Below, one piece after another: positions 2,617 through 5,537 of a stretch of 26,691 nucleotides of DNA. The stretch's first letter is position 1; every line of letters begins with the position of its first letter. Origin of the DNA: a virus; IMG/VR virus record IMGVR_UViG_3300025806_000177, positions 1 to 26,691 of that record. The stretch is one strand, 5' to 3'. A program made the translations under genes and the position numbers. The notes under the pieces are model-generated. The model made no database searches. It saw only the letters and a program-made list of their open reading frames with translations, and was not told the origin of the DNA.

Positions 2617-3513
2617 ATGCCATTGATCAGAGCTAAGATTAAGACTAAAGGAGAGAACGGACGTACAGCCCTGATCGATGGCGATGTACTGGTATATTCT
2701 TGTGGATTTGCAAGTGATATAAGGACATACACTTGCTCCGATGGCTCTTCTTTTCAGTATAAGAAAGAAGCTAAAGAACATTGCTCAGAGTTTCACCTAG
2801 ATGTAGAAGCTATTAAAAAGAGGGTAAAAGCTGAACCTGTAGAGAACTGTTTACACTCTGTAAAGCTAATGATAAAAGACATTAAAGAAAAGAGTGAAGC
2901 ATCTAATCATAAAATTTACTTAACAGGTAAGGGGAACTTCAGGCACGATCTCCCCTCCCCATATACATATAAGGGTAACCGTAAGGACACACCTAAACCT
3001 TTACACTATCAAGCTATCAGAGTCTATATGGTATCTACTTGGGACGCTATAATAACTGATGGACAAGAAGCTGATGACGCTATGGGAATAGCTCAAGTCA
3101 ACAGTCCAGAGGGTACGACTACTATCTGCACAACTGATAAAGATTTAGATATGATTGCGGGACATCACTACAACTGGAATAAAAAAGAAAACTATACTAT
3201 TGGAGAGTTTGAGGGCATCCTTAACTTCTATCAACAGATACTCAAGGGTGATAGAACAGATAACATCTTTGGTATCAAAGGTATTGGAGATGTAAAGGCT
3301 AGACAAATCTTATGGAAGATGGATAATGAAAAAGAATTAAGTATAGAAACTCAACTAGCATATGCTGAGAACGGTAAGACACCTGAAGAGTGGCTAACCA
3401 ATGCTCGATTGTTATGGATTAGACGAGAGGAGGGTCAAATGTGGACTCCTGAACCTGAACATAGAACATCTTGGCTACAGGCGTATATGGAAACATTAGA
3501 TAATGAAGTTTAG
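2617..3513 (+). CDS. 5'-3' exonuclease, T7 gp6-like (FEN family)
   Basis: 298-residue structure-specific 5' nuclease, close to T7 gp6 in length (300). Metal-binding acidic motifs of the FEN superfamily are visible: TALIDGDVLVY (about 17-27), the arginine/lysine-rich YKGNRKD region (near 118-124), DGQEADDAMGIA (about 148-159) and TTDKDLDMIAG (about 172-182). The helix-hairpin-helix DNA-binding motif follows (FGIKGIGDVKARQIL). It probably degrades host DNA for nucleotide supply and removes RNA primers. The start is ATG 2617 behind AGGAGATATAACC, a T7-style ribosome site. It overlaps endonuclease I by 11 bases. Confidence 0.9.
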   Translation: MPLIRAKIKTKGENGRTALIDGDVLVYSCGFASDIRTYTCSDGSSFQYKKEAKEHCSEFHLDVEAIKKRVKAEPVENCLHSVKLMIKDIKEKSEASNHKIYLTGKGNFRHDLPSPYTYKGNRKDTPKPLHYQAIRVYMVSTWDAIITDGQEADDAMGIAQVNSPEGTTTICTTDKDLDMIAGHHYNWNKKENYTIGEFEGILNFYQQILKGDRTDNIFGIKGIGDVKARQILWKMDNEKELSIETQLAYAENGKTPEEWLTNARLLWIRREEGQMWTPEPEHRTSWLQAYMETLDNEV

Positions 3514-3916
3514 AGGACGTAGTAAGTTTGAAACACGTATAGCTAAAAACTTAGAAGAACGTGGCGTTAACTTTACCTACGAAACAACATCATACAATTA
3601 TCAAATTAGACCATACAACGCTAAGTGTCAGGAGTGTGGTAGTAGTAATATATATGAAACTAGGAAGTACACACCAGACTTCTTCTTGCCTAACGGTATA
3701 ATAGTAGAAGCAAAAGGTAGGTTTAAACCTAGCGATAGGAAGTTAATGAAGGCTGTTATGAGTAGTAATCCAGAGCTAGACATACGTATGTTGTTTCAGA
3801 ACCCTAACGTGTGGTTAACTAAATCAAAAAAGAAGAACTATGGTACTTGGTGTGATTATGAAAACATCAAGTGGGATAAGAAACTAATACCACAAGAGTG
3901 GTTGGAGGAAGTATGA
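3503..3916 (+). CDS. Endonuclease I / Holliday junction resolvase, T7 gp3-like
   Basis: 137 residues; it cleaves branched DNA and helps host DNA breakdown. It aligns well with T7 endonuclease I. The catalytic set is Glu10 (RSKFETRIA), Asp59 (YTPDFFLPNG), Glu69 and Lys71 (VEAKG), matching T7 Glu20, Asp55, Glu65 and Lys67. The C-terminal part also matches (PELDIRMLF, KLIPQEWLEE). Odd feature: an insertion at about residues 39-55 carries a CxxC pair (Cys42, Cys45) before the YTPDF motif, where T7 has a short turn. It overlaps the exonuclease gene upstream and shares ATGA with the gene downstream. Confidence 0.92.
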   Translation: MKFRGRSKFETRIAKNLEERGVNFTYETTSYNYQIRPYNAKCQECGSSNIYETRKYTPDFFLPNGIIVEAKGRFKPSDRKLMKAVMSSNPELDIRMLFQNPNVWLTKSKKKNYGTWCDYENIKWDKKLIPQEWLEEV

Positions 3917-4158
3917 GTGAACTATTCGCATTGCTTGTAGGAATATGTAGTATAAACTACTGTTCATTTTCTATAGAACATCGGGTTACAGGAGACTGGT
4001 TAGCTGTTAATGTTTATGACAAACGGTCAGAGGTAATAGATAAGGTTCAGTTTGATATATCAGCATTAGAATTTGATATTATTCTTCGTGAACATTTAAA
4101 GTTAAAGCCTATTCTTCCTAGTTGTTTAGGGAAGACAATGGTGACTAGTAATGATTGA
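3913..4158 (+). CDS. Unknown small protein, 81 residues
   Basis: No family recognised. ATG 3913 is chosen over the ATG at 3898 because it has a good ribosome site (GGAGGAAGT) and makes an ATGA overlap with the endonuclease stop. The N-terminus is mildly hydrophobic (FALLVGIC) with Cys12 and Cys17, followed by a mixed soluble region (DWLAVNVYDKRSEVIDKVQF). It overlaps the start of the metallophosphoesterase by 8 bases. Confidence 0.65.
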   Translation: MSELFALLVGICSINYCSFSIEHRVTGDWLAVNVYDKRSEVIDKVQFDISALEFDIILREHLKLKPILPSCLGKTMVTSND

Positions 4159-4870
4159 CACTATGATGGTACATAGTGTTAGTTCTAGCACTAAGAATAA
4201 TGCAGCTAGATTCTCACACAATAGTATACAAGGACACTTCCATAGTAACTTTGAGATTAGCTATGCAGCAGACACTAATCAGATTAGATGGGCTATGACC
4301 GTAGGATGTTTAATGAATCCAGATGGTGTAGCAGCTAGGTATGGGTCAGGTATAATATTAAAAAGACCTATACTAGGATGTGGTGTAGTAGTAAGTAGTA
4401 AGGGTAACTATTTAATTATCAGTGACTTACACATACCGTACCACCATCGTGATGCTTTTAGTTTCCTAGAATCTGTGTCTGAGTATTATGATTGTAAAGT
4501 AATACTTAATGTAGGAGATATGATTGACCACCATGCGGGTAGCTACCATGAGTCTGAGCCTGATGCTCTTAGTCCAGAGGAAGAGTACTATCAGTCTATG
4601 GAGTACTGTAATGAGTTACAAGATATATTTCCTAGCATGATTATAACCGAGGGCAATCACGACAAGATACCACAGAGGAAGCTAAAGACTTGTGGACTAC
4701 CTGCGTCTATGGTGTATGATTACAATAAACTATATAAGCTAGATGCTAAGTGGAAGTGGGTAGACAAGTATACGTTTAATTCTAATGGAGGACAGCCTGT
4801 ACTAGTACCTATGGTACTTAATCAGAAAGGGAGATGGAATAAGAAAGTACATGGGAGTAAAGTAGGATGA
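4151..4870 (+). CDS. Metallophosphoesterase with permuted motif order
   Basis: 239-residue calcineurin-like phosphoesterase holding all the metal-site motifs of the family in an unusual order. Residues about 7-80 look like the second half of a standard enzyme: VHS, then SIQGHFHS (GHxH, residues 28-31), AMTVGCLMN and KRPILGCGVV. Residues about 86-205 look like the first half: LIISDLHIPYHH (DxH, Asp92/His94), NVGDMIDHHAG (GDxxD, Asp123/Asp126), ITEGNHDKIP (GNHD, 168-171) and WKWVDKY. A tail (QPVLVPMVLNQKGRW, about 215-229) resembles the normal C-terminus of these phage enzymes, then VHG at 233-235. In relatives the order is DxH, GDxxD, GNHD, VHG, GHxH. The reading frame is intact, so the protein could fold as a circular permutant. 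It overlaps both neighbours (8 bases upstream, ATGA downstream). The substrate is unknown. Confidence 0.85.
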   Translation: MIDTMMVHSVSSSTKNNAARFSHNSIQGHFHSNFEISYAADTNQIRWAMTVGCLMNPDGVAARYGSGIILKRPILGCGVVVSSKGNYLIISDLHIPYHHRDAFSFLESVSEYYDCKVILNVGDMIDHHAGSYHESEPDALSPEEEYYQSMEYCNELQDIFPSMIITEGNHDKIPQRKLKTCGLPASMVYDYNKLYKLDAKWKWVDKYTFNSNGGQPVLVPMVLNQKGRWNKKVHGSKVG

Positions 4871-5025
4871 CTCTCACACTAGATGAAGTTAAGAAGTGCA
4901 TCTCTAGTCAGTATGATCCAGACTTAATAGTAGAGATACTAGAGATTACCACGGAAGAACTATTGGAAAATTTCCATGATAGACTAGTGGATAATTTAAA
5001 TAAATTTGAGATAGAGGGAGACTAA
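4867..5025 (+). CDS. Unknown small protein, 52 residues
   Basis: ATG 4867 overlaps the phosphoesterase stop (ATGA), and the stop is TAA 5023-5025. The sequence is acidic and helix-prone: TLDEVKKCISSQYDPDLIVE, then EILEITTEELLE and NFHDRLVDNL. Similar short proteins are common between replication genes of marine podoviruses, but no function is known to me. The tight coupling on both sides supports a real gene. Confidence 0.65.
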   Translation: MTLTLDEVKKCISSQYDPDLIVEILEITTEELLENFHDRLVDNLNKFEIEGD

Positions 5026-5031
5026 AGTACA

Positions 5032-5493
5032 GTGGCTATACACAACGCACTAAAAACCAGTAACAGTAACACATGGGAAACACCCAAGAGTTTGTTTGAT
5101 GAACTAGACAAGGAGTTTAACTTTACTTTAGATGTAGCTGCGTCATATGAAAATAGAAAGTGTAAAGAGTATTACTGTGAAGAAGCTGAATCAATAGGAA
5201 AGTCAGGACTAGACCTAGATTGGCATGGTTCAGTGTGGTGTAACCCTCCTTACTCTAGGGGTTTACAAAACAAGTTTATTAAAAAAGCTAACCAAGAGTA
5301 CTATGCAGGTAATGTAGAATCTATTGTAGTTCTATTACCTGCTAGAACTGACACGTTAATGTTCCATGAGTATGTATACAAAAAAAGAAATGTAGAATTA
5401 AGATTCCTAAAAGGAAGGTTAAAGTTTGAGGTAGGCGGAGTAGCAAGTAAAAACCCTGCACCATTTCCATCCATGTTAGTTATCTTTAAATAA
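5032..5493 (+). CDS. Phage DNA N6-adenine methyltransferase (Dam-like)
   Basis: 153-residue enzyme of the phage adenine-methylase family (Pfam DNA_N6-adenine-MTase type). It would transfer a methyl group from S-adenosylmethionine to adenine in DNA. Evidence: NTWETPKSLFDELDKEFNFT at the N-terminus (family hallmark TWeTP), TLDVAAS (SAM-site region), and the catalytic NPPY at WCNPPYSRG (about residues 70-78). VVLLPARTDT follows, and then LKGRLKF. The start is GTG 5032, with GGGAG at 5016-5020 as the ribosome site; no ATG fits better. It probably protects phage DNA from restriction or marks it during replication. No paired restriction nuclease is present. Confidence 0.88.
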   Translation: MAIHNALKTSNSNTWETPKSLFDELDKEFNFTLDVAASYENRKCKEYYCEEAESIGKSGLDLDWHGSVWCNPPYSRGLQNKFIKKANQEYYAGNVESIVVLLPARTDTLMFHEYVYKKRNVELRFLKGRLKFEVGGVASKNPAPFPSMLVIFK

Positions 5494-5497
5494 CAAA

Positions 5498-5512
5498 AGT
5501 ATCATTGATACT
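5498..5512. promoter_or_regulatory. Palindrome AGTATCA-T-TGATACT upstream of the reductase gene
   Basis: AGTATCATTGATACT has two 7-base arms around a central T. It lies in the 44-base gap between the methylase and reductase genes, about 25 bases before the reductase ATG. It is identical to 11536-11550 and has the same arms as 1913-1926. A regulator-binding site controlling the reductase is the simplest reading; no convincing promoter was found overlapping it. Confidence 0.5.
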
Positions 5513-5537
5513 ATTAAATATAAGGGAGAAGTAATTA

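Follow-up and report, generated by a model that had tools for sequence, protein, structure and literature searches.

The window, by which we mean the whole stretch of 26,691 nucleotides analysed here, carries a metallophosphoesterase gene at 4151–4870 on the plus strand, between exonuclease and endonuclease I genes on one side and a ribonucleotide reductase gene on the other. The 5'-3' exonuclease gene (2617–3513, plus strand) belongs to this neighbourhood and is followed by a phage endonuclease I gene (3503–3916, plus strand; Pfam and PHROG, PF05367), which we take to be of the T7 gp3 type. An open reading frame (ORF) of 86 amino acids (3898–4158, plus strand; ORF list) overlaps the start of the phosphoesterase gene and matched nothing in Pfam or PHROG at E ≤ 0.01, and another ORF of 52 amino acids (4867–5025, plus strand; ORF list and tblastn) lies directly downstream. 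The other neighbours are genes for an adenine methyltransferase and a B12-dependent-type ribonucleotide reductase. At 60–1852, a family A DNA polymerase is encoded as two overlapping ORFs; the ORF at 60–392 looks like the end of an exonuclease domain, and the polymerase part runs from an ATG at 389.

The phosphoesterase gene, assigned by ORF, PHROG, BLASTP, alignment and AlphaFold, is an open frame with an ATG at 4151 and a terminal stop, and encodes a calcineurin-like protein of 239 amino acids with swapped segments. Since this frame is blocked by a TGA at 4142–4144, two codons 5' of the ATG, no in-frame upstream block is missing. The motifs of the window protein come in the order B-A-C (VHS...GHFH, then SDLH...GDMID...GNHD, then the tail strand), compared with the usual A-B-C. 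Block B (residues 1–84, 4151–4402, plus strand; BLASTP pieces and conservation) corresponds to the normal C-terminal half, and contains VHS, GHFH, GCLMN and RPILGCGVV with the metal ligands H8, H29 and H31. Block A (residues 85–209, 4403–4777, plus strand; Pfam, BLASTP pieces and conservation) corresponds to the normal N-terminal half, and contains SDLH, GDMID and GNHD with the metal ligands D92, H94, D123 and N169, plus H170. Block C (residues 210–239, 4778–4867, plus strand; BLASTP and alignment) comprises the C-terminal strand and tail (GGQPVLVPMVLNQKGRW) and is still last.

When we compared the window protein by BLASTP with five normal-order phage proteins, the matching pieces were out of order, which bears out the B-A-C arrangement proposed in the initial annotation. 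These proteins come from Pseudomonas phage Bf7, Vibrio phage VEN, phage Phi NF-1, Methylophilales phage MEP301 and Pelagibacter phage Baldr, and represent phrog_221, a comparison set of T7-like and other phages. In all five, residues ~69–218 matched part A, which is N-terminal in the normal order (E 3e-26 to 4e-36), residues ~3–84 matched part B (E 2e-14 to 3e-12), and these E values indicate that the likeness to normal-order proteins is not due to chance. Residues ~214–233 matched the normal C-terminus in four of the five (E 0.004 to 1e-6), and in MEP301 the C piece was joined to the stretch upstream of it (E 2e-6). The phrog_221 profile matched in two stretches (E 2.8e-40), and PF00149 (Metallophos) covered only residues 87–214 (E 4e-7, profile positions 3–116 of 191) with 31.1 bits, above the gathering cut-off of 21.5. 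Among three other permuted proteins, those of contigs L116 and L113 also passed this cut-off and that of L120, with 20.4, fell just under it. The order B-A-C departs from the A-B-C usual in PF00149 and phrog_221, although order is not a formal condition of homology. The initial annotation had described the motifs as circularly permuted. The re-ordering stands, and the catalytic motifs taken alone are indeed cyclically permuted; however, a circular permutant would show the cyclic order B-C-A, and strand C is last in all 19 permuted proteins aligned, so that the arrangement is a segment swap and not a strict circular permutation.

Relatives were collected from IMG/VR viral contigs in five viral scans, and all counts given here are lower bounds and not frequencies. 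The initial annotation had proposed a database search for homologues with the same order, and genes with block B first were found in at least 30 IMG/VR contigs besides the window's own record, with at least 20 distinct full-length sequences including that of the window. The first scan gave at least eight contigs near-identical to the window (98.5–100% in DNA over the aligned pieces), seven of which reach into block B and one of which (L008) starts inside the gene; in six near-identical contigs the gene equals that of the window or is one synonymous base apart. At least 23 more contigs with divergent B-first genes came from the IMG/VR scans with alignments, and identity to the window protein is 47–70% among the 18 aligned permuted relatives. 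By profile search in six frames, 288 loci were classed as 51 B-first, 236 A-first and 1 truncated. Counted by contig name, the 51 B-first loci represent 30 contigs and the window's own record, and over the last 200 residues 21 B-first and 130 A-first sequences are distinct; L119, counted among the 21, repeats the L110 sequence in truncated form, hence 20 are distinct at full length.

The matches listed in two later viral scans included no further permuted contig, and one scan of bacterial and archaeal genomes yielded two relatives, both in normal order, and no permuted homologue. Named phages were searched by tblastn with three permuted proteins (those of the window, L113 and L120) against 50,697 records, which may omit records very near the window's own, and 820, 634 and 638 records were matched, respectively. 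The ranking was by coverage × identity, so that a permuted homologue with the closeness seen in IMG/VR should rank first. No permuted homologue was among the best 40 of 820, 12 of 634 and 12 of 638 rows listed, all of which were joined from two or three pieces as normal order predicts. The swapped phosphoesterase belongs to a family of uncultured phages. One permuted phosphoesterase has an N-terminal extension resembling a four-cysteine zinc ribbon (L116, 2317–2500), and a normal-order one (L128) is helix-turn-helix-like there instead, the Pfam matches being below the cut-off in both cases.

Eight residues are expected in or next to the metal site, namely D92, H94, D123, N169, H170, H8, H29 and H31. 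None of them varies in the 19 permuted rows of the alignment, and their counterparts are likewise constant in all 17 normal rows. We take DxH, GD, GNH, H and GHxH to be the metal-site motifs of calcineurin-like metallophosphoesterases. Either H8 or H234 had been expected to act as a ligand; the alignment decides for H8, which is the seventh conserved ligand and is kept in all 19 rows, and against H234, which lies in the HGSKVG tail of the window protein and is not matched by a histidine in any of the other 18 rows. We then estimated dN/dS for 11 pairs, five of which gave a ratio, with synonymous changes saturated in the other six. The ratios were 0.026 (L110–L111), 0.036 (L107–L109) and 0.033 (L104–L105) at dS below 0.6, and 0.044 (L102–L104) and 0.036 (L101–L133) at dS of 1.5–2.1. 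These substitution patterns show that the permuted gene is under strong purifying selection in close pairs, and in the three closest pairs neither junction carried an amino-acid change. Over the 19 codons of the A-C junction, the ratios were 0.32 (L102–L104), 0.48 (window–L100) and 0.55 (L112–L113), and this junction is the looser, less constrained part in wider pairs.

In a tree of block A, calculated by a quick method that warned of few columns and long branches, the B-first rows (20 of 103) form one side of a branch with an SH-aLRT of 95. In a tree of blocks A and B, with 50 rows chosen from the 103, the 18 B-first rows form one clade with support of 100/99, present in all of the 200 bootstrap trees. 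Taken by itself, block B offers 85 columns, a small number for this many rows; two changes are needed there instead of one, and it therefore does not resolve a single origin. The nearest relatives of the B-first clade are 15 normal-order genes (L121–L132 and L134–L136), all 15 with the order A-B-C. Since the other tree rows and the solved members matched by a normal cousin are also A-B-C, B-A-C is the derived state. On the evidence of its sequence, then, the window protein is a derived variant of the calcineurin-like metallophosphoesterases and not an ordinary member. The best reading of these data is that the swap arose once, by an exchange of halves. As to the route, we suggest more tentatively, as the simplest one, that the gene might have been duplicated in tandem, after which the first copies of A and of the short C and the second copy of B were lost. 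In six frames of the 288 loci, we found no duplication intermediate with A or B doubled in frame, nor another block of full size at a different place in the same stretch. Away from its phosphoesterase gene, L120/L226 has a 57-amino-acid ORF on the minus strand that matched block B weakly (E 0.0016, profile 32–69), probably by chance.

The neighbourhoods were compared by tblastn (E ≤ 1e-4), starting from the genes that flank the phosphoesterase gene in the window. In the B-first contig L115, polymerase, exonuclease, phosphoesterase and ribonucleotide reductase lie at −3878, −1730, 0 and +1091, and in the A-first contig L123 they lie at −3789, −1483, 0 and +999. Within the available stretch, the exonuclease was found beside 11 of the 15 normal cousins and the reductase beside 7 of the 15, one of the seven reductase matches being only 22% identical. 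Twenty divergent B-first contigs were tested (L103, L107 and L119 were left out), and the exonuclease was present in 6 and the reductase in 2; at least one of polymerase, exonuclease, endonuclease I, reductase and the 52-amino-acid ORF was present in 8, and none in 12, some of which are short contigs. The 52-amino-acid ORF is also found near a normal-order gene, just downstream of it in L124, and near the permuted gene in L100. Swapped and normal-order genes share a neighbourhood in part of the contigs, and it is likely, from those branches in which the neighbourhood can be seen, that the exchange occurred in place.

Other differences were observed around the gene. A Dam-like methyltransferase cassette (window 5026–5534) is present in the window, L001, L004 and L006, and is precisely absent from L002, L003, L005, L007 and L008, where the alignments end at 5025 and resume at 5535; L096, which is the same contig as L002, has a 58%-identical methyltransferase copy far upstream instead. 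L100, the closest divergent relative of the window, carries between its permuted phosphoesterase and the 52-residue ORF a different gene (3450–4166), presumably DNA methyltransferase-like as judged by its DPPY motif, so this spot seems to exchange methyltransferases. The exonuclease gene of L006/L099 has one gap in DNA that is otherwise near-identical to the window, with a match of 96% against 100% for its neighbours, possibly owing to a frameshift or an assembly error.

In order to compare the two orders structurally, we used AlphaFold2 models of the permuted protein (19 permuted rows only; pLDDT 84.7, pTM 0.86) and of the normal cousin L129 (17 normal rows; pLDDT 86.6, pTM 0.88). In each model 17 helices and strands are listed, and 16 of them correspond block by block in the orders B-A-C and A-B-C; helix 60–68 of the permuted model has a counterpart of just three residues in the cousin, and the list for the permuted model lacks helix 48–51 of the cousin. 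The three breakpoints fall in turns, which in the window protein lie ahead of the first B strand (before MMVH), at the step from the last strand of B to the first of A (SSKG, a B-A linker of about four residues, 82–85, between strands 76–81 and 86–91) and at the step from the last strand of A to strand C (NSNGG, between 206–209 and 215–220).

A Foldseek search of the PDB gave 0 of 733 matches at E ≤ 1e-3 for the permuted model (best 0.026, over 120 columns) and 87 of 827 for the normal cousin (best 1.4e-6), and a sequence search of the PDB with the permuted or the normal profile gave no convincing match. With VIA-align, blocks A and C of the permuted model aligned to Mre11 and LpxH with Z of 4.6–6.5; the best score, 6.5 on Mre11 (residues 85–223), is modest and at a level that may mean only a common arrangement, according to the tool's own note, and the match to LpxH covered residues 86–231. 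The cousin aligned to YfcE with Z 14.7 over residues 4–236. Residues 2–243 of the LpxH chain 5b4b_B aligned to residues 86–231 of the permuted model and to 5–233 of the cousin, starting in both with the first block A strand and ending shortly after the GRW/GSW conserved in block C. This identical span indicates that the permuted model leaves the first A strand and the C tail at their usual places. Sequential alignment places only residues ~82–231 of the permuted model on solved phosphoesterases, and VIA-align listed no solved family covering its block B, which is not evidence of absence. Since a sequential aligner cannot test block B, its placement rests on the AlphaFold confidence and on a match in BFVD. 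The latter, A0A516M849, is the only close full-length match there (E 3e-37, 237 columns of a 240-residue target, TM 0.94, 62% identity). Because this sequential match spans 237 columns, we infer that A0A516M849 is an independent prediction for a permuted relative in the same swapped order, and a swapped protein would already be present in UniProt without a name. The Andromeda and PP1 phage proteins in BFVD also matched over 235–241 columns, but with a TM of 0.55 and 22–23% identity, and the Andromeda gene was matched in three pieces by tblastn with the window protein. We suggest that the chain would adopt the usual sandwich.

Here, we need to consider other explanations. Since the swap is unusual, it might be an assembly chimera or a cloning artefact joining two fragments of a normal gene. 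This has almost no chance of being correct, as the same order occurs in the window and at least 30 other IMG/VR contigs with at least 20 distinct full-length sequences, and the junctions are without amino-acid change in the three closest pairs; divergent homologues sharing the junctions rule it out. The assembly join that the initial annotation wished to exclude with read data is excluded by independent contigs with the same order, which here take the place of reads, and the locus is not one with normal-order relatives only: these exist, and so do permuted ones. It is also highly improbable that the gene is a decaying or inactive remnant with motifs kept by recent descent, because dN/dS was 0.026–0.044 in the five of 11 pairs that gave a ratio, and the eight site residues do not vary in any of the 19 rows although the 18 relatives are only 47–70% identical to the window protein. 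A pseudogene was rejected on the divergent homologues, dN/dS and the B-first tally. The initial view of a selected, folding protein thus agrees with the B-first contigs, the strong purifying selection and the confident AlphaFold model.

The remaining two explanations concern the folded protein. The new B-A linker of only about four residues might not close within one chain, and Mre11-type phosphoesterases are dimers, so block B of one chain might complete block A of another and the protein might exist only as a domain-swapped dimer or oligomer. We regard this as unlikely, given the confident AlphaFold monomer (pTM 0.86, a model of a single chain) and its agreement at TM 0.94 with A0A516M849, likewise a single-chain prediction. 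In VPS29, a calcineurin-like fold has been converted from an enzyme to a binding protein, and the model of the normal cousin matches VPS29 among others. That the window protein is folded and metal-bound but repurposed in this manner is, however, very unlikely, since all eight site residues including the GNH histidine are invariant in 19 of 19 permuted rows.

Based on these observations, we suggest that the window gene very probably encodes an intact two-metal calcineurin-like phosphoesterase, predicted from sequence and models, whose halves are encoded in swapped order (B-A-C). Reconnecting the chain at turns would let the same pieces pack as before, and the predicted dinuclear site would be completed by H8, H29 and H31 of block B, now first, together with D92, H94, D123 and N169 of block A. 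Because the gene sits between exonuclease/endonuclease I and ribonucleotide reductase, we propose that the enzyme acts in phage DNA metabolism, where its putative substrates are nucleic-acid or nucleotide phosphodiesters; the adenine methyltransferase among the neighbours points to the same area of metabolism. With somewhat less assurance, we favour the fuller reading that the halves were exchanged once in a phage lineage to give a strongly selected, predicted active enzyme with a connectivity unseen among the solved metallophosphoesterases found. The swap may have altered the folding order, the oligomer state or the recognition by a host counter-measure, which would explain its retention.

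The hydrolase fold of the metallophosphoesterases is widespread, and both profile libraries and structure searches that align sequentially take the order of motifs as fixed. Here, Pfam matched the swapped protein only in part, and Foldseek gave no PDB match at E ≤ 1e-3. The permuted clade and its close normal cousins form a natural pair for studying how connectivity relates to folding, metal-site assembly and specificity, and the same pair, found for some members in a shared neighbourhood, may show how segment swaps get fixed in compact phage genomes. By the same token, other folds may have swapped variants that lie hidden among unannotated viral proteins.

Natural circular permutations are known for many folds. 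Four papers describe permutations of other folds (PMC7824862, PMC9503650, PMC12419801, PMC2876114), and a structure survey reports frequent non-sequential structural alignments within the metallo-dependent phosphatase fold (PMC2213659), so geometric re-orderings of this fold appear to have been noted at the structure level already. The function of the MEP301 phosphoesterase gene is called unclear in PMC8024684. In the literature searched, mostly papers outside subscription, we found no report of natural motif re-ordering in metallophosphoesterases, and what would be new here is the natural exchange of halves in this family, the fold itself being common. The phrog_221 metallo-phosphoesterases of Bf7, VEN, Phi NF-1, MEP301 and Baldr are homologous to the window protein in all three blocks and have the same motifs, while their order is A-B-C instead of B-A-C. 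An exonuclease gene is found shortly upstream of the phosphoesterase gene in Bf7, VEN and NF-1, as it is in the window, and the phosphoesterases of these three phages have an extra N-terminal region that is absent from the window protein. The 15 normal cousins resemble the permuted proteins in block B (RW[SA]M..GCL) but, unlike the window protein, have the order A-B-C, and the fold of the normal cousin is that of YfcE, the MJ0936-type phosphodiesterase, LpxH, Mre11 and PolD DP1 (Z 12–15).
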